30,389 bases of DNA from Bolinopsis microptera. Its lineage: Eukaryota; Ctenophora; Tentaculata; Lobata; Bolinopsidae. Positions 531 through 12,200 of this stretch are shown here, piece by piece. A program made the translations under genes and the position numbers. The notes beneath the pieces were generated by a model, which made no database searches, was not told the DNA's origin, and worked only from the letters and a program-made list of their open reading frames with translations. Positions within the stretch are counted from its first letter, which is position 1; each line of letters opens with the position of its first letter. The stretch spans positions 1 through 30,389 of the forward strand of contig NW_026971845.1 of NCBI RefSeq assembly GCF_026151205.1, given 5' to 3'.

Positions 531-3500
531 CTCTCTCCACATCCTGCCCACTAAGCCTCACATGGTAGCCCTCCATGAGGAGGGAGCCAATAGCCAGCGC
601 CTCGCCCAGTGCCCAGTCTGCCTGCTGAGCCTCCACCATCTTTGTTCGTCCCTGTGGGTGTGGTCAGTAAAACACCCCACTTTAGATCATCAAACTTAAT
701 AAAGTCCAGAAATATGCACTCTAAAACATTAGCATTATTTCTACTTAAATAGCATTAAGAACAAAGGCAGCACTTAATAACGTCATATTATTTAAGAATT
801 TTCGAATATATAGCGAACTTATTTGGCACCCGTCCTACGAATATTTCACCATTTTCGCAACAACAATAACACGTACCTTCAGAATACGCTTGATTCCCGG
901 ATGAACCTTGATGGGGGGATCAGCACTGAAAGTCTCTGCTATTCTCTTCAGAACACTGTCGCTGATACCGGTGGGGGGCGTTTCACGTAGAATTGGCACT
1001 TTGTTCGCGTCACACTAAGAGGGAGACTGGTGAGGGACACAATATAATATACAGAATATAAAGTGTGACTGGTTGCTCTATTGATCAGGCCGAGATTCAC
1101 GTTCACTTATTGAGTTTAAACGTCTTGTGGTTGTTTATTCACCTACTGACATAAACTGTTATTACAACACTGTTGAAACACTGTGACATACTCTGTTACA
1201 ACACTGGTAGGTATAGAGGGGGAAAGCAAATATTACCTCGAAGAAATGGTCCCAGGGACTGTCCAGCCAATCAGTGAGCTTCATCTTGGTGATGGCAGTA
1301 CTCTTCTGATAAGCTTCGTTCATGATCTTATCGAATGCTGCTATCTCTTCCTGATTAGCGAGACTCAATTTAGTTCTTTAATTTGTCGAACAGATAACTT
1401 AGCCAGATATATTCCTTTTGCCTCACCTGCACCCAAACATGTCAAGAAGGTTAACTTTTTTAGTTCTTCTAAAAACGTTAACCTTGCACACTGACTTTTG
1501 GCCCAGGGTGGGCCAAAAGTCAGTGTGCAAACGTTGGGTCTTATACCTCCGCCGTGTTTTATATTTGAGAGCTGTTGCTTTGCAGATGGCATACTGTACT
1601 TACTGGTTCGAGGATTCCGTCGTCAAAATTTGAAAATTCGAATATTTTAGACCACGCCCATTCAATATTAAAACACCTATATTGTTTTCTCTGAACATGC
1701 TGAACGCCTAATTTTTTCAGAGACGGTAGATTATTAAATGTTGCATATGATCTGAAAACATGAGGCAAAACGGATTAGAAATGACGAAGTTATCAAGCAT
1801 TTTGTGTATCTCGTTAACAAAATTGACTGGGTGATTATGTGACACCGTGACACGACACCTTAATTAACAATTCCCATAATGTTTAACGGGGTAGTTAACG
1901 GGGTCACCTTATCACGTGATTAGGTAAACCAATCACCTGATCACACGTAATGAATAAACTCGTTATGCTTCATATCTCGGTCATCTGAGAAGCTACAGTT
2001 CTAATTCTTTCAGGACAAACGTAATTCGAATGGCCAAACACAATTCAGTAACATTTAGCTTGATCCGACTATCCAAACTATCAAATAAATTTGAAAATGA
2101 ACCTCCATTTGAAAAAAATGAACGCGAATATTTTTCGAGTTGACAAATTCCTCGAACCAGTGGTGGTACTAAGTCATACCAGAAGGAAGTATTTCAATTG
2201 GGCACTAAGTGACTGAGCTATTAAGGCCAACGTTTGCACACTGACTTTTGGCCCACCCTGTATTAGTACATTAATTATTATGAACGCTTCAATAAGTACA
2301 GTATGTGACTCTCAGCCCTGCAGAACTCACGTCAATATCAGCTTGACAGACAGTTCCCTCCGCAACCAACTGGTCAGCATATTTGTTCAGCACATTGGGC
2401 AGCTCCCTGATTCTCTTGTACATGAGGGGCTGGGTAAAACTGGGCTCGTCCGCCTCGTTGTGACCGTTTCGTCGGTAACACACTAGATCTATCACGACGT
2501 CCTTACCTGCAAGAAGTTATTGAAAACTGGACCCATCAACAGATGGACACGTTCATTGAAGTTTGAGGATATTGGTAAATATTAGTGACCCTACTAAATG
2601 GCACGATGATGTAAAATGTGTCACACTATGAAACTATATAAACCCTCTAACCCTAAGATAATCGTTTCATCCTCTAGATAAACTTTGTCGCATAACGATA
2701 TCTTTATCAGACGATAAGATATCGCTTAAATGCGGCCGGCAGTGAGTTGTAAACTTTGTCACACTATAAAAACGTGACGGAGTTTATATGGACCCCTTGT
2801 TGCCGTGTTTGACCAAATTTTCGAATTTCCAATTCATAGAATAGCTGTATATGACTATTATCTACATATTTAGCGACTTTTTTCCTTAAATGGTAGCACC
2901 ATGTAAACTCCGTCACACATTTAAGAAATTTATATGAGGGATGTTTATGACATCCTGACAAGAAATGCCGAATAGTCTAGCATTATTTTATGAGCTGAAT
3001 GTGTTTGGAATTGTTCACATATTTCATTGTTATACGCAAATACAAATACAGAAGGCAGAAATAGGTAAATTTAGTCACATAAATTTGTATGATATCTCAA
3101 CATGTGTAAAATTAAGTAAATATTAGTATACCAACTTAAACACCCTATATTACGTACTATGGATCAATTAACAATATTTCAACCATACGCCAGTTATATA
3201 AATTATTATATGGCAGTGATATGTTAACATTGAATGAATTTCAACACCTGAACAGGGTAAAAATTTGTAAATTTCGTCACAAAAAAAATTATAACTTCAT
3301 TTGCCCCGTGTTGGCAAAATAACTAATTTATCGACATAGTGATGGTGATAAAGTAACATTATATACTAATTGAGGTAGGATTCTTCAAAATAGGGGCAAG
3401 AAATGTAAATTTCGTCACATCAGACATTGCATTAGTTAGGTAGATTTTCTTTAATATCAACTCCCCTTATTATAGTTGGAATGGATTTATACAGGAAATA

Positions 3501-6266
3501 TAGAAACCCATGCCCATTATTCATCACATTGAAATTATACTGTTGGGGCAGGAAAAGTAAATTTCGTCACATTTCGGTAAATTAGTGATATCAAACTCAG
3601 CATTGTTAAACTTGAGTTCTGATTTGCTGAAAAATAACCTACCAATAATTCCTGGAAGAATATTGAATTCTAATCGGGGTATGGTTCTTCAAAATAGGGT
3701 CAAGAAATGTAAATATCGTCACATACGTCATTGTAAAATTTAGATACAAGTTTTCTTTCACATCAACAGTCCTAATTATAGTTTGAAATGATTAATTCAG
3801 AGATAAGGAAATATAGAAACCCATGCCCATTTTTCATCACATTGAAATTATACTGTTGGGGCAGGAAAAGTGAATTTCGTCACATTTCGGTAACTTAGTA
3901 AAATTAAACTCAGAATTGTTAAACTTGAGTTCTGATTTGTATTGCTGAATAATAACCTACTAATAATTCCTGGAAGAATATTGAATTCTAATCGAGGCAT
4001 GTATCTTCAAAATAGGGTCAAGAAATGTAAATTTTGTCACATCAGCCATTGCATTAGTTAGATAGATTTTCTTTCATATCAACTGCCCTTATTATTATTG
4101 TGACAATTTTTACATCAACTGCCCTTAACTTGAATCAGCTCTATCCGTGCATCGTCCTTATATACAGTTTTCCCGCCTTCTAAACCAAAATCAGATATAA
4201 ATGATTTCGGCAATTCACCCAAAATTTTAAATTCCATATAATGTGACAGAATTTACATCATTTCCCAATAAGTACATGTATTTGCTAACTTTTCAAAACA
4301 ACATATTTTAGGGCTATGATTGGTAGAAGAACCATCAAATAATGAGTTGAAAGGGTTTTGAGGACACCTCACAGTAGAAAAGAGGTATCGTATTCTGAGT
4401 GTGACAAAGTTTACGAAATATTGCCTTAAAACCGTTCGATCCCTGCCCTTTAGCCAAATGTTGTATCATAATTGTTAGAATGACCTAATCTACTATATTT
4501 TAAACCAAAAAATGCTAATTGGGCAGCTATGGTTAACACAGTCACAAAAATGTGACATTTTTTACATTATAGTGCCTAAAAACAATAAATTGTATTTCTG
4601 AGCCGTGTATATGGAAGTATGGGTCACGTGGCTAATGTTCAGAACTTCTGAACACGCTATTTTTTTTTGGTTTACCAATATCCTTAAATCTTCAACATGA
4701 ACGTGTCCATTTACGATTTCGTATCATTTTGTGACGATGTTTACATCAACTGCCCTATACTTCAATCAACTGTATCCGTGTATTGTCCTCATATAGAGTT
4801 TTCCCGCCTTCCAAACCAAAGTCAGATATAAATGATTTCGGAAATTCACCCAGAATTTCAAATTCCATATAATGTGACAGAATTTACATCATTTCCCAAT
4901 AGCCAAGTGCATGTATTAAATGTATTTGTTAACTTTTCAAAACAACATATTTTAGGGCTATGATTGGCAGAAGAACTATCAAATAATGAGTTGAAAGGGT
5001 TTTGAGGACACCTCACAGTAGAAAAGAGGTCTCGTATTCTGAGTGTGACAAAGTTTACGAAATGTTGCCTTAAAGCCGTTCGATCACTGCCCTTTAGGCC
5101 TACATTGCATCATAATTGTTAGATTGACCTAATCTACTATATTTTAGACCAAAAAATGCTAATTGGGCAGCTATGGTAAACAATGTCACAAAAATGTGAC
5201 ATTTTTTACATAATAGTGCCTAAAAGCAATACATTTTATTTTTGAGCAGTGCATATGGGAGTATGGGTCACGTGGCTAATGTTCAGAACTTATGAACATG
5301 CTAGATTAAAATATGTTAAAATTAAACCACTATCGTCAAAAACGCTGTTTTAGAAATTTACCAATTTCCTCAAACTTCAATGAACGTGTCCAGATACAAC
5401 AGATACATCAGCACAGTCGTTCTTTTCTTAATTGGATCCCTAATTTTATCTTCGTGCACAAATTTGCTTGTTCCTCAGCAATACATGCCTCCTGAGCAGA
5501 AGAGGCCGAGGTTCACGTTCATTGTTACAGCTAGTAAAGTAATAATAAAAATCGTCTCAACATTGAAAGTAATACAATTCGATAAGAGAATTGGTACACA
5601 AGTTTCAAGATATCTCCTTGAGTTTAAAAGCACATCTCACCCCAGTCGGCGCGCCAGTTAGCAGCCACGTTGCACACGTGCATAACCGCCTCCGGATCAT
5701 CAGCGTTAACGTGAAGTATGGGAGCATTAACAACTTTGGCAACGTCAGTGCAGTAGGGAGAGGACCGGGAAAATCGGGGATCTGTTGTGAAACCCACCTG
5801 GAGCACGAGATTGATAAAATTTCAACTATTCAATGATTTCAAATTTTGGGTTTTAGATTTCAAAGTAAATTTAATAAATTAAGAACGGAGGTTCATCACT
5901 CAAAATTACGGGATAGGGATGGCATCTGATAATCTCAGGTTGATAAAGTGGATGGTTATTAACCTGATTGTTGACTACGATGTGGATTGTGCCTCCAGTA
6001 GTGTAACTTGGCAGGTCACTGAGATGCATAGTTTCGTACACTACTCCCTGTCCACTGTACGCCGCGTCACCGTGCAGTAGGATAGCCATGGTCTGAGAGG
6101 GAGTGTTGTTTAAACAGCTTGTTACAGTGTAAACCCACAATTACATTTTATGCATTATTGCTGGTTCAAAGCATAGAATACTTCAAAATTTCAGCAACTC
6201 ATTATCAGATAATAGCGTCAAGTCTAACAAGAGTAAGTAAGAGTCATCTTGTAGACTAGATGGTAG

Positions 6267-6298
<32 letters not shown>

Positions 6299-9200
6299 AG
6301 TTTATTTGACAAACCTTCTGTCCAGCTTCATCGCCATTAAAGAATTGGGTTGCTCTGACTTTACCACAGACGACAGGGTTGACAGCCTCTAAATGCGAGG
6401 GATTGGCGACTACCGATAGCTCTACTTCTTTGTTGGTCAGGTGATTGATACGGCGGTGATACATCCCAAGGTGATATTTTACATCACCAGAACCCTGAAA
6501 AGTGAGATATGAAACATTCCCTCAAGTGGCTTTATTGATATAGGAATTAAAGCAGGTGCCAAATCACCCAGGCACAATATATTCTTAGCTAGAACAAAAA
6601 AAACTGTACTAAAGAAAAGGCTGTACAGAAAAGAACACTATCCGCATTCAACAGCCTCCCAAACCTCATCCTCTGGTGTCAGATCAGGGTTGAACTGGTT
6701 GAAGAGTTTCTCAAGTTCCTTCCTGCACACGTTAGCCAGCACGTTAAGTCTGCCTCTATGTGGCATTCCTATCACGAAACTATCAACCCCCCGAGAGTTA
6801 GCAATGTCGATTATCTGCTTCATGGCTGGGATCAGTACCTGAACAAGGTTTAATTTCAGGGTTGTTTGTTCGTTAACATGAAAGAGAAACAGTATCTGTT
6901 AGAGGGCTGCATTTTCCAGAAATTTAGGAAATACATCCTTGTGCTTCCCACCCAGCTATATTAATTGAAGGCTATAATACCGAATGCCCTATTGTCCATT
7001 CTCTTAAATCACAACAATATTAAATGTTAAAATTACCTCACAGCCCTCCAACCCGAATCTTTTCTCACTAGGCCATTTCTTCGCAAGATACTCTTCAAAT
7101 CTGGTAGATCGAACAAGTCGGGCTAATAAGATTCGCTTCTCTTCACTGGTCATGTTCCTTATTCCGGGTTTTTCGACCCACTTTCTGATATACTCTCCTG
7201 GTAAATTGAGATGTAAGCGTGGGAATAGCGCATATTATAATTAATACTCGGCTAACGAGTAGTTCACAAGTACTGAATGTGGGTGTGCCATGAATGCACA
7301 ACCCAAAGATATGTAAAAGGTAACGTTCACGTCGCCAAAAATCTTTAGGGTATCGACCTCATCGCCGTTTGTCAATTGTAATGATTATACTGTAAAACAC
7401 CAAATTCTATGACCATTTAATTTGCCAATTTTGGTGCGTCAGATTTGATGTTTTACAGTAGTAGTATAGTCGTCATATATTTGTATAGTATAGTATTTGA
7501 ATAGTGCTATAATCCATTAATTCCCTATATGAATACCTTACAAGACATATTTATGGCGGCCTAATTTGCGACGACCGAAATTTTGGCGGTCCGAAAATAT
7601 GGCGAAATTGAACAAAAACCGTCAAATTTCGGACGACACAGAAAATAAGGGTATCTTTCATCATTTTTTGTGACAGTAAGCAGTAAGGAAATTTCTGAAA
7701 TTCGGTAAAATCATGTTCAAACTTAGTCTGTATTAAGACTGTAAGACTTTCATGTTAGCACATACATGTATTTTAATGCAAATTTAAACTGTATTGCTTG
7801 ACATTCAATTCGTCATTGGTGTGGTGATAATTTGTCCCAAGATGCCAGAATTTATTTATTTATTTTGGTATTTTACTTGATATTACTTTTTAGAAACAAA
7901 ATAAAGCAGTGAAGGCACAGTCATTGAAATAAGCTAAAAGATAATGCGACGGATTCTATTACGACGACCGAAATTTTGGCGGTCCGAAAATATGGCGAAA
8001 TTTTCGGAAAACCGCCACATTTCGTACGTTATAAATATGTCTTGTAAGGTAGGTCGTTCAGTGGCGTAACGTTAGTAGCTGATTTAACTTGGCGCCCAAA
8101 TTTTTTGTGTCCCTAAAAAAAAAAAAAAAAAAGGTCGGGTACCTTTTTTTGGCGCCCCCTACAGCTTTTTTGCGCCCCTGGAGCAAGAAAAGGACCCCAA
8201 AAATTTTTTTCACACCGACTGAGCGCTAAATTGGACAGGAGAATACACCAATAAGGCGTTATTTTCAGTGAGAGGTTATAAAATTCAAGAAAAATTCAAG
8301 AAGAAACCTAGGGGCGACATTTCGTTGAGAAAGGGCGCCCCCCGGCGTAGCCGGGGGGCGTTATACTAAGACTATGAGTGAGATCAGAATCGAACTGATT
8401 GTTTCCGCGCGCGTTAAATTTTGTGATGCGCGCATTGTTGCGCGACGTTGTCAACCATATTGCCTTTCGCGTCATGTGAAAAGTATGGAAAATCTACGGT
8501 AATTTCAGGAAAAGTCGTGGAAGTTGGAGTACTAACTGAATTGTGATGCAATCAATTTAGGAATTAAAAATTAGAGTCAGTTCCAACCGCACTACATAAC
8601 TTCCCATTACTTTGACTTACTTGCCCCAGGATCGTGCATGTGCATGAACTCTGCACCAATAGATCCGGAGTATACTCTCTGAAAGAAAAACAATAAGCAT
8701 TTTGTGTTTAAGTGTTTAAATATACATTTTGCCGTGCACTCCTTTTTGCCGATAAATCAGTTAAACTTTATCTCAACTTACAAAATCTAGCTGTAGCAAG
8801 TACATGTGGGCAGAATTTTCAATATACCAGAGGATGCGGCAAGGAATTTATGCAAACCCCCTCCGGTCGACTCAGCCGAATGATCGGAAAGTACGTGATT
8901 GACGGTTAATCGAAGAAGGGCCCTGTCGAATCTTCTTAGGGTATATCTAGAATCTTCTTAAAGCTAGTTACCTCACGGTAACCTTATCTGTTATGACGAA
9001 GTAAATGGGTCTGTAACTGTAAAAAGAATGGACTGTTTTATTATTGAAATTTTGGTCTAGAAAGTTCTACCTCCAGTCGGTTGATAGTCTCCCTGAGAGT
9101 GAGCTCCCTTTCATCACCACCAAGATACGTGTACTTTGGCAGTTGAAAGTACTGGTCCATATCTTGTTTTGCTGAAAGTATGAACTGTGTAATATCCCGC

Positions 9201-12200
9201 TCGCAATATTATTCCTGAAATCAGATACCAATTTTGAGAAAATGCCAGGTTATTTTTACATGCGATACTTAGGAATGTGTCAAATGTGTCAAATAAAGAA
9301 CTTAGTAATTTGTGCAGTATTGTATACAGTGTGGAACTCTTGGTATGTATAAGTATACTATGTGACTGCTACATGGATCAACTGTTAGATATTTAGCAAC
9401 ATTACTCATTATGACAGCTCATTAACTTGCAAACTAAATATACACTGATTTTTGAGTAAGTTAGTAAACGCATACAAATAGTAACAAATGGACCCCAGGG
9501 TTCAAAAACCTAAAGTAGCCGAGTGAACCCTTAGTTAAGTCGGTATACTAAATTACATGTAGTAGTATAACGTACACTACACAAACGGCAAACCTATAGT
9601 ACAGGACTTGAAGATAAAGAGCAAAACTTAAATAAATTAAAAAGCTTATCTCAATGAATACATCGAAGAAAACTGCAGTTTTTCCGTTCCACAACAAACC
9701 TGTGAAAATTTAAGATCACCTAGTTCTATTTTAAATAATGGCATTATACAAAATTTCATAATTATTGGTTTCGCAGGAAACCCCAGGATTTCTCATGAAC
9801 TAAAATTAACCGCAACCGTCCTTTTATATTTACGTGATCGTATTGATGACTAAAACTTATCCTCGGGTTTTTCTTCTTTCATGAGTCCTAAATATATCGT
9901 TTCCTAAATTTACTGCAGCAGCTTGAAATAGTCAGCTTCTCAAAGTTCTAGCCGAAACTGTGGCCCCTCTAGCTATATTGAGAGGCCTGAGGCCATAGTA
10001 TGTATTTATATGTAGCAGGTAAAAAATTTCTCTCACGTTATTAATATTATACAATAAACTGCTAGATTCTAGGCAGATTCTATTGCATTAATATTCAAGC
10101 TCCACCTGAAGCAGATAAATAAATGGGATGTCAAAAAGAAGGCGACTCAAGATTTGTAACCAATTTATCAATAAATAAGTTATCAATCAAATCATTGCTT
10201 CTTGTCCCTTGGCTTCTTGAGTAACTGTCGTCCAGTCCCAGGACGTCGTGCATCAGTTAAGGTGTTGGTAAGGGTGAGTCTTTGGGCTAGGGTATTGGTA
10301 AGGGTGAGTCTTTGGGCTAGGGTATTGGACATTGGTAAGGGTGAGTGTTTGGGCTAGGGTATTGGACATTGGTAAGGGTGAGTGTTTGGGCTAGGGTATT
10401 GGACATTGGTAAGGGTGAGTGTTTGGGCTAGGGTATTGGTAAGGGTGAGTCTTTGGGCTAGGGTATTGGTAAGGGTGAGTGTTTGGGCTAAGTTAAGGTA
10501 TGGACTAGACTTAGTGTTAGGGCTTTAGTGGGGCACAAAGTTCTGGGGAAAATAAATGTCTTTCTATGACTCACAAAACAAAACACCCACTAATTTCTGA
10601 GGACATCTCTGATCTCGAGCACAACAATTAAGAATAGTTGAAACAAAAAACAGGATAAACTAACAAGTGGAATGTGGATGAACGGTGCAGCACAGGTGCA
10701 GCACCTCTGGACCAGCTTAACCGTAATCGCAATCTGAACACTAACAATGCACCACAAGTTTTATTTTTGTGAAATCACCTACAAAACAGATGAACCATTA
10801 AACAATAAACATGTAGTGATTGTTTTTGAAATGCGTGAATAAAAACAAGACAAACAAATGAATTTTTGAGATGCGTGTATAAAAACAAGACACACAAACT
10901 AATTTTAGACAAGACAGCATCAGACTTACTAAAGTTGTAGTATTCCAGAGTGAGTATATCTGGGACCGTGCTGTCAAGATCCGCAGAGCCAATACCAAGT
11001 GGATCCAACTTCGCTATGTGATGGCCAGAAGACTGCAGAGAAATGATCATTAATAAAAAATACTTTTTGAAATGGACAGAAAATTACGAACTGTAGTCAA
11101 TGATTTATTATTATTTTTACAATTATAACTTTATAAATCGTCAAGATAATCCATATTAATTTCATCTATAAGTTTTATTAGTATATTCTGTTAGTAGTTT
11201 ATAAAACTGATTTTATAACGTTTCACAACTTGTTGAATCATCTAATTATAATTATAATTATTTTCTTATTCTTATTCTTATTTTGATTATAATTACAATA
11301 ATTATAATCACAATTACAATAATCCACAATGTTTTACAACACAATCTAGAGCGGGTTACATTAACCTGATATGCTCTCAGTAATCGTTGAAAGTTGTGAT
11401 GTTTCAGAATCATACTCTGTCCGGCTCTGGTGCTTTGTATTGCATCGCCAGCCGAAGCTTCCGTCATTGGAACTGCAGCGCTTGGTGCGAACATGGGATA
11501 GACAGGCATGTTGGGTGCTGAAACATGCGCTTCTCCAGGTCCTGCTCCTCCTTCCGTCCGGGAGAAGAAGATTTGCCACGACTGTAATTTGATCTTCCGT
11601 TATCAGTTGAATGTTTTGTAATACCGTTACGAGATTAATGGAGGCTATGGAAAATAATCTTCCTCATCAATGACTGGATAGTGGATATGGTGTGAACAAT
11701 TAAATATTAGTCATCTGCAGCTGCCATACTTAATACTTTATATTCATGGACAGGGAAGTCAATTCGTACAATGTTTGTACACAATGCAATAGTTCTATCG
11801 ATAAAAGTTTTGGAATTCCTAAAATAGCATAATTTAAAGTTTTGCATGTTTTTTAATGATGCTTCTTGATTTTATAGATATATCTGATTTAAAATATAGC
11901 ATACTTTTGAGAAATAAGATGGTCATGATTTTGTTAATAGTTGGCTTGTGCAATCTTTAATAAAATACCAACTATCACTTTGTCTTAATACCACAAAATG
12001 AGCCTCAGTAACAAAAAAGTGAAATAAAAAACATTACTTTGTGTACACTGGACGGATCTTCTCTCCAGCTCTCATACATGTCCTCAACATAAGTGGAGGA
12101 TGATCCGTTGAGGAAGGGTTCCGCTGCAGCACTCGACTTGAATGCTGTACGCAGCACATGACGTACTGGTATACATCGGAGCAGTTTTCCTCTCACAGCA

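Follow-up and report, generated by a model that had tools for sequence, protein, structure and literature searches.

What kind of element carries about 20 copies of a short motif that point right in one half and left in the other, and what might such an array be for? The question arises in a 30,389 bp stretch of the Bolinopsis microptera genome (contig NW_026971845.1, positions 1 to 30,389; hereafter the window), where a segment at 2545-5391 is intronic because exons matching 2-oxoglutarate dehydrogenase E1 (OGDH) lie on both sides of it (2292-2516 and 5627-5821, minus strand). This segment is a non-autonomous class II DNA transposon with terminal inverted repeats (TIRs). The terminus GGACACGTTCATTGAAG starts at 2545 and its reverse complement finishes at 5391, the TIR pair extends over about 36 bp with one mismatch, and the element is bounded by a four-base target duplication, AGAT. 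Its longest stop-free frame is 83 codons, with 70-105 codons in 20 related copies (L010-L029) described below, and an Rfam scan of 2300-5700 found no family at its gathering score. The first-pass annotation of the window had placed a transposon with these ends, this duplication and a flipping array in the OGDH intron, all of which is borne out here. We think it probable that the element consists of two very long subterminal arrays of transposase sites, brought together by the loss of a coding middle.

Matches to the motif GTAAANTTNGTCACA with up to two mismatches number 23 in the window, and 21 of these are within the element; dinucleotide shuffles of the whole window contain 1.83 on average (largest 5), and shuffles of the element alone 0.2 (largest 3). 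When sites are assigned by halves of the element length, 18 of the 21 point inward, such that the earlier description of all copies facing the centre holds for most of them: 5176 (+) and 2808 (-) face outward, and the third exception, 4027 (+), is just right of the midpoint yet is aimed at the array's own centre. The site at 5176 forms a palindromic pair with that at 5195 (-) and is kept in all 28 copies compared below. A further copy previously listed at 2575 is not a regular one, being degenerate, inside the TIR, and unmatched at two mismatches. The motif had been described as 15 bp long, and although it is present as such, the site is longer and has two parts, with a GG box about 25 bp ahead of the (A/G)TCACA end. 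This box falls in a fixed six-base window about 10 bp upstream of the motif at 19 of the 21 sites (expected fraction 0.13), and it was absent from the search pattern used to pick the sites.

Coordinates of the transposon, its parts and a related empty site in the window
Feature	Position	Strand	Remarks
Related empty site for sister copy L025	1808-1811		ATCT in window versus ATAT, one base different
Target site duplication, left copy	2541-2544		AGAT, 4 bp
Family-1 TIR transposon, non-autonomous	2545-5391		2847 bp; A end left, B end right
Left TIR, about 36 bp	2545-2580	+	inner part GG...GGTAAATATTAGTGACC resembles array motif, by eye
Right-pointing array half	2611-4041	+	11 motif copies: 2611, 2678, 2749, 2903, 3065, 3267, 3405, 3557, 3709, 3870, 4027
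Weak outward motif match	2808	-	
Centre of flip	4078-4127		14-bp direct repeat ATCAACTGCCCTTA at 4078 and 4114
Left-pointing array half	4099-5209	-	8 motif copies: 4099, 4242, 4400, 4551, 4730, 4873, 5044, 5195
Relic right terminus within element	4672-4708 (about)	-	
Opposite partner of 5195 (-)	5176	+	2-mismatch motif match
Right TIR	5356-5391	-	
Target site duplication, right copy	5392-5395		AGAT, 4 bp

Once the motif is set aside, the window element has about ten types of unit with no relation to one another: their mean identity is 28%, near chance, and gapped scores resemble those of shuffled flanks. Eight pairs of units are related, with flank identities of 52-92%, and a ninth pair at 46% is probably a chance likeness. 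Tandem duplication accounts for some units, and the ten or so types show no common ancestry outside the motif; the earlier proposal that the array grew by duplication of 315- and 632-bp units is thus correct for the related pairs only. In the left half the duplication units measure about 304-318 bp; those of the right half measure about 631-644 bp and take in a relic right terminus whose inner word is found again at many places in the genome, and which was probably left by a 631-644-bp tandem duplication of the right end. In the nine listed unit pairs the 13 core positions differ in 5 of 117 comparisons and the flanks in 286 of 963, and in the A-end sequences of the 28 copies the core departs from the majority sequence at 10 of 1232 positions and the rest at 427 of 12704, for sites that were picked by motif match and for sites and copies that are related through shared ancestry.

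The spacing of the sites is also steady. Within each half the steps beyond 2749 are 138-202 bp, leaving little room for lost sites. Pooling 19 hand-chosen intervals, comprising the steps between differing unit types in this element and those of a second family (see below; a 302-bp double step was entered as 2 x 151), gives a median of 154 bp, a mean of 158 bp and a standard deviation of 14 bp. The pool excludes steps of 36, 67 and 71 bp near the A end, as well as those of duplicated right-pointing (152, 152, 161 and 157 bp) and left-pointing (143, 171 and 151 bp) units. The steps show weak coherence of helical phase (R 0.21 at 10.5 bp).

A genome search with a 17-mer of the TIR, allowing one mismatch, gives 436 matches in 264.65 Mb, as against 2 for the reversed-pattern control; a looser inner TIR pattern finds 715 ends, corresponding to roughly 350 copies including truncated ones, and low-complexity and masked stretches may conceal others. 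Pairs of ends were drawn from 100 of the 436 matches, on contigs C1-C4, with contigs beyond C4 thinly sampled. We recognised 36 convergent pairs by eye, and compared 28 copies of this group, which we refer to as family 1, namely 27 loci and the window copy. All 28 have the same A and B ends, with right-pointing sites running from the A end followed by left-pointing sites towards the B end, although the copies were selected by their TIR. Unit number differs among copies. Median divergence from the majority sequence is 2.1% for the A end and 3.4% for the B end, and the window copy and L021 differ by only 0.2% over the A end; the largest pairwise differences reach 31% (A end) and 44% (B end). Many family-1 copies are thus young, while others are much older or rearranged.

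Exact duplications, 4 bp or longer, flank 26 of the 28 copies, the two without one being L005 and L013. These represent 25 independent sites, with L011 and L012 counted as one because of their common flanks: ATAT at 15, ATAA at 3, TTAT at 2, and ATAC, GTAT, TTAA, AAGT and AGAT at one each. The L011 and L012 copies are 15 kb apart (C1:4793106-4811300) with both 150-bp flanks identical, and the pair is probably a segmental duplication. A repeat in the OGDH region of the window, at about 1661-1941, is also the target of sister copy L025, whose flanks match it unbroken and, when joined with a single tetranucleotide, align over the empty site listed in the table. This supports the family-1 boundaries and the 4-bp duplication. 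It goes part of the way towards the empty-site comparison proposed by the first-pass annotation: the site is a related one for a sister copy and differs by one base. A second comparison (L027 with L008) aligned at the site with gaps only and is not counted.

Two further families, additional to what the first-pass annotation described, share the start of the TIR, the 4-bp duplications and the array layout with other motifs. Family 2 was found by an outer-TIR search that excluded family 1 through forced mismatches (TIR GGACACGTTCATAAAAAAG; five complete pairs, three of them read, L037-L039), and family 3 by a search with the family-2 TIR (TIR GGACACGTTCATAAAAAGG / GGACACGTTCAAAAAAAGG; L061-L067 read, of which L066 and L067 match in part only). 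The first 11 TIR bases, GGACACGTTCA, are common to all three families. Duplications of 4 bp were seen by eye at all three family-2 loci (TTAT, ATAT and TTAA) and at four of four family-3 loci (L061-L064; TTAT, ACTT, ATAT and ATAT). The Repbase superfamily rule asks for duplications of equal length and for positions 1-11 to align with no more than one mismatch (PMC4455052; here and below, statements from the literature reflect excerpts of the cited papers), and on their sequences the three families would be placed in a single superfamily by that rule.

Copy L037 of family 2 contains 13 sites of RNCACAANAATCACA (shuffle mean 0.39, largest 2), right-pointing and then left-pointing apart from a single outward site close to the left terminus; the steps measure 151-177 bp, and there is one double step. 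For family 3, ATGANTCAAAAATCACA at up to three mismatches gives 14 sites in L061 (shuffle mean 0.15) and 12 in L062 (shuffle mean 0.17), and no shuffle of either exceeds 2. Close to the ends these sites mostly face inward, and mid-element their orientation is mixed. Both motifs were derived from the same elements and the enrichment is therefore partly self-chosen, though it is far above the shuffles. The TCACA box and steps of mostly 150-160 bp recur in both families, but the motif core differs, and the family-1 motif has no matches in L037, L061 or L062. With TCACA ends as the reference for alignment, 12 of the 13 family-2 sites have the GG box in the same window (expected fraction 0.09); the GGCA form of the box is present at 13 of the 21 sites of family 1, 2 of 13 in family 2 and none of 14 in family 3. 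Inward sites by halves of length are 11 of 13 in family 2 and 10 of 14 in family 3, or 39 of 48 with family 1 included. The additional 1.2 kb present in L038 of family 2 consists of a different dispersed repeat (45 matches). Eight TIR ends of the family-2/3 type occur in one orientation within 59 kb at C11:1632120-1690988, perhaps a tandemly duplicated locus.

These features lead us to propose that each half of the element is one long transposon end, an array of putative sites for the transposase or for a transposon-encoded accessory DNA-binding protein, with mostly one site per 140-180 bp and nearly all sites aimed away from their own end, towards the centre. Each site would comprise a GG(C)-type box, a family-specific core, and an (A/G)TCACA box whose end is about 25 bp on. 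Loss of the ancestral coding middle would then have joined the two arrays, and the flip of orientation would mark the place of that loss, at which two inward-pointing arrays came together; as a guess, the direct repeat ATCAACTGCCCTTA possibly marks this junction. Many bound protomers would help to find and pair the transposon ends. Long ends of this type would explain why unit number varies and why cores differ behind the same outer ends. The binding platform suggested at the outset is strengthened by conservation of the motif against unrelated flanks and by the two further families, and because cores differ in families of the same layout, a transposon-encoded binder seems favoured over a single host factor.

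A more specific version, which we regard as doubtful, is that the three families represent a lineage of an unnamed superfamily whose ends are nucleosome-phased docking arrays, with a bipartite transposase site for every nucleosome repeat along about one kb or more of each end, in which the GG/TCACA frame is constant and the core coevolves with the transposase of the family. If so, the non-coding elements would consist solely of a pair of transposase-loading tracks. With outer ends and layout in common but different cores, the three sister families form a natural experiment in the joint evolution of transposase and site. They could also be used to ask whether transposases sense spacing on the nucleosome scale, and the bipartite site of about 26 bp is a concrete probe with which to fish out the cognate transposase.

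Several observations weigh against two joined transposase-site arrays. Sites more than 1 kb from the ends would be unusual for binding sites. Family-3 copies contain 6 and 8 matches to the family-2 pattern, and family 2 contains five to that of family 3, which leaves family 1 as the sole family whose core is clearly separate. In family 3 the GG box is weak (4 of 14 sites), and the orientation is imperfect, that of family 3 alone not being significant (10 of 14, p 0.18). The apparent conservation of the motif is inflated because the sites were found by matching it, although the position of the GG box and the steady steps are less exposed to this bias than the counts of core against flank. Lastly, no transposase gene tied to these ends was found in the loci scanned for open reading frames (ORFs), which comprise 27 family-1 loci, L033-L036, 15 loci with unpaired ends and 10 family-2/3 loci, and the five genomic regions with THAP ORFs that we read lack a family TIR at two mismatches and never contain more than two matches, scattered, to a given motif.

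The autonomous relative sharing the TIR that the first-pass annotation had proposed looking for was thus not found among these loci. Of nine long convergent TIR pairs, seven from family 1 (L003-L009) and two from family 3 (L063 and L064), eight contain reverse-transcriptase-like ORFs, the exception being L008, which has no ORF of at least 120 codons; Pfam assigns RVT_1 to ORFs of all five loci submitted (L003, L004, L005, L009 and L064), and most long copies carry reverse-transcriptase ORFs from inserted retroelements. Within 2 kb of each of fifteen unpaired family-1 ends (L046-L060) no transposase was recognised, and some of these ends lead into ORFs that by eye resemble host genes or retroelements. 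Searches with TIR variants, known families excluded, found no coding member of family 2 or 3, and three loci with other GG-type ends (L040-L042) have no array. The THAP regions come from a genome search with 43 matches, five regions being read at seven places (L030, L031, L032, L045, L068, L069 and L070), of which L068 looks like a host gene. Open-access literature searches on the TIR word, subterminal arrays and satellite-bearing elements returned no match to this element among the titles and abstracts listed.

Retrotransposon-like ORFs lie inside the arrays of L003-L007 and L009 (family 1) and L063, L064 and L066 (family 3), with near-identical ORFs by eye in L005 and L064 and in L006 and L009; the arrays may be favoured landing sites for retroelements. 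Locus L035 was considered as an old divergent copy and set aside, its interior being homopolymer-ridden by eye and taken for a poor assembly stretch; the affected part, 2100-4900, resembles poor assembly consensus.

Other explanations of the array differ mainly in what the motif is taken to be. It could be the binding site of a host chromatin, silencing or centromere-type protein that is served by the near-nucleosome spacing, and the median step of 154 bp over the 19 hand-picked intervals of families 1 and 2 is in keeping with this. The GTAAA of family 1 resembles what we take to be a forkhead core, and some family-3 sites contain TGAGTCA, which is presumably AP-1-like. However, one factor should keep one motif, and the absence of family-1 motif matches from one family-2 and two family-3 copies makes a host platform quite unlikely, even if the overlap between the cores of families 2 and 3 weakens this objection. 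Alternatively, pairing between the long arms as inverted repeats, as in a Foldback-like element, could be what matters. Foldback and Galileo also have halves of internal repeats with opposite polarity, but here the halves are not inverted copies of each other, left- and right-half units being 19-42% identical outside the motif without gaps and 46% at most with shorter flanks, and the ends match over about 36 bp only. We disfavour this explanation and find it highly improbable.

The array could also have grown in the manner of a satellite, by tandem unit duplication and without function, the motif being merely the slowest-changing remnant or a gene-conversion copy. The variable number of units among copies and the related units at 304-318 and 631-644 bp fit such growth, and oyster and Drosophila elements bearing satellite-like internal repeats provide precedents (PMC7492417, PMC4079207). 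It is nevertheless unlikely, as about ten unit types have only the bipartite motif in common, the independently seen GG box is at a fixed distance in two families with differing cores, and the steps beyond 2749 stay at 138-202 bp despite unrelated sequence between the sites. Tetris of Drosophila contains internal tandem repeats of about 220 bp that are 87% alike within an element, and its coding partner was not found (PMC4079207). Tetris/DAIBAM and Helentron-type elements are likewise non-autonomous with internal tandem repeats; the Tetris repeats are alike along their length, whereas here the motif alone is common to the unit types.

Two-ended transposase-site arrays are in better accord with some known transposons, and the array is less unusual than the first-pass annotation had supposed, in that arrays of binding sites have precedents in CACTA and Galileo. 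CACTA elements have conserved TIRs and family-specific subterminal repeats thought to bind an element-encoded protein; the soybean Tgmt* elements of this CACTA/EnSpm group likewise combine short conserved TIRs with a reiterated two-part subterminal motif that differs by family (PMC2613891). Tgmt* elements differ in having 13-bp CACTA TIRs, a 3-bp duplication and direct and inverted repeats, of which one side has 24 within 732 bp and the opposite side 4 within 159 bp (PMC2613891), whereas the elements described here have GG termini, a 4-bp duplication, and sites mostly 140-180 bp apart across their whole length. With GGACACG termini and a 4-bp duplication rather than CACTA termini and 3 bp, the element does not belong with CACTA/EnSpm. 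Galileo, of the P superfamily, is similar in having extra transposase (THAP-domain) sites within internal repeats; footprinting and electrophoretic mobility shift assays place the THAP domain on three repeats in a 1.2-kb TIR, and a search of other subfamilies did not recover the site of subfamily G (PMC3688188). Three sites in a long TIR compare here with about 20 sites, a TIR of about 36 bp and a 4-bp duplication, and the 7-8 bp duplications of P elements (as quoted in PMC5199201) do not agree with the 4 bp seen here.

Kolobok was an early candidate based on the termini and THAP-like boxes. The 5'-RR...YY-3' termini (GG...CC in the 28 TIR-chosen copies) and 4-bp duplications are similar. Kolobok is described as TTAA-specific, and that specificity fails here, with TTAA at 1 and ATAT at 15 of the 25 family-1 sites, although the KolobokP lineage, with duplications of 3-5 bp, departs from it too (PMC9587614). 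Four Kolobok-like families that we read in this genome (L030/L031, L032/L045, L069 and L070) have other ends and lack the TIR and the array. They encode long THAP transposase ORFs with a P2RX7_C-type companion ORF (by Pfam for L030, and by resemblance for L032, L069 and L070), and two copies of one of them are about 99.5% alike. The GG(C)A box of the family-1 site resembles the THAP1 consensus TNNNGGCA (PMC11811203); by analogy, a THAP-type finger on this box and a second domain on TCACA would be a natural guess, and no more. Sola2 elements have AT-rich 4-bp duplications of the AWWT type (PMC3627910), which, compared by the duplication alone, fit 15 of the 25 family-1 sites (all ATAT) and not the other 10.

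Elsewhere in the window, a run of 30 G residues lies among the OGDH exons at 6268-6297, two copies of the word GACGACCGAAATTTTGGCGGTCCGAAAATATGGCGAAA are separated by about 400 bp (approximately 7570-7607 and 7963-8000), and a tandem array of 37-bp units spans 10261-10490.

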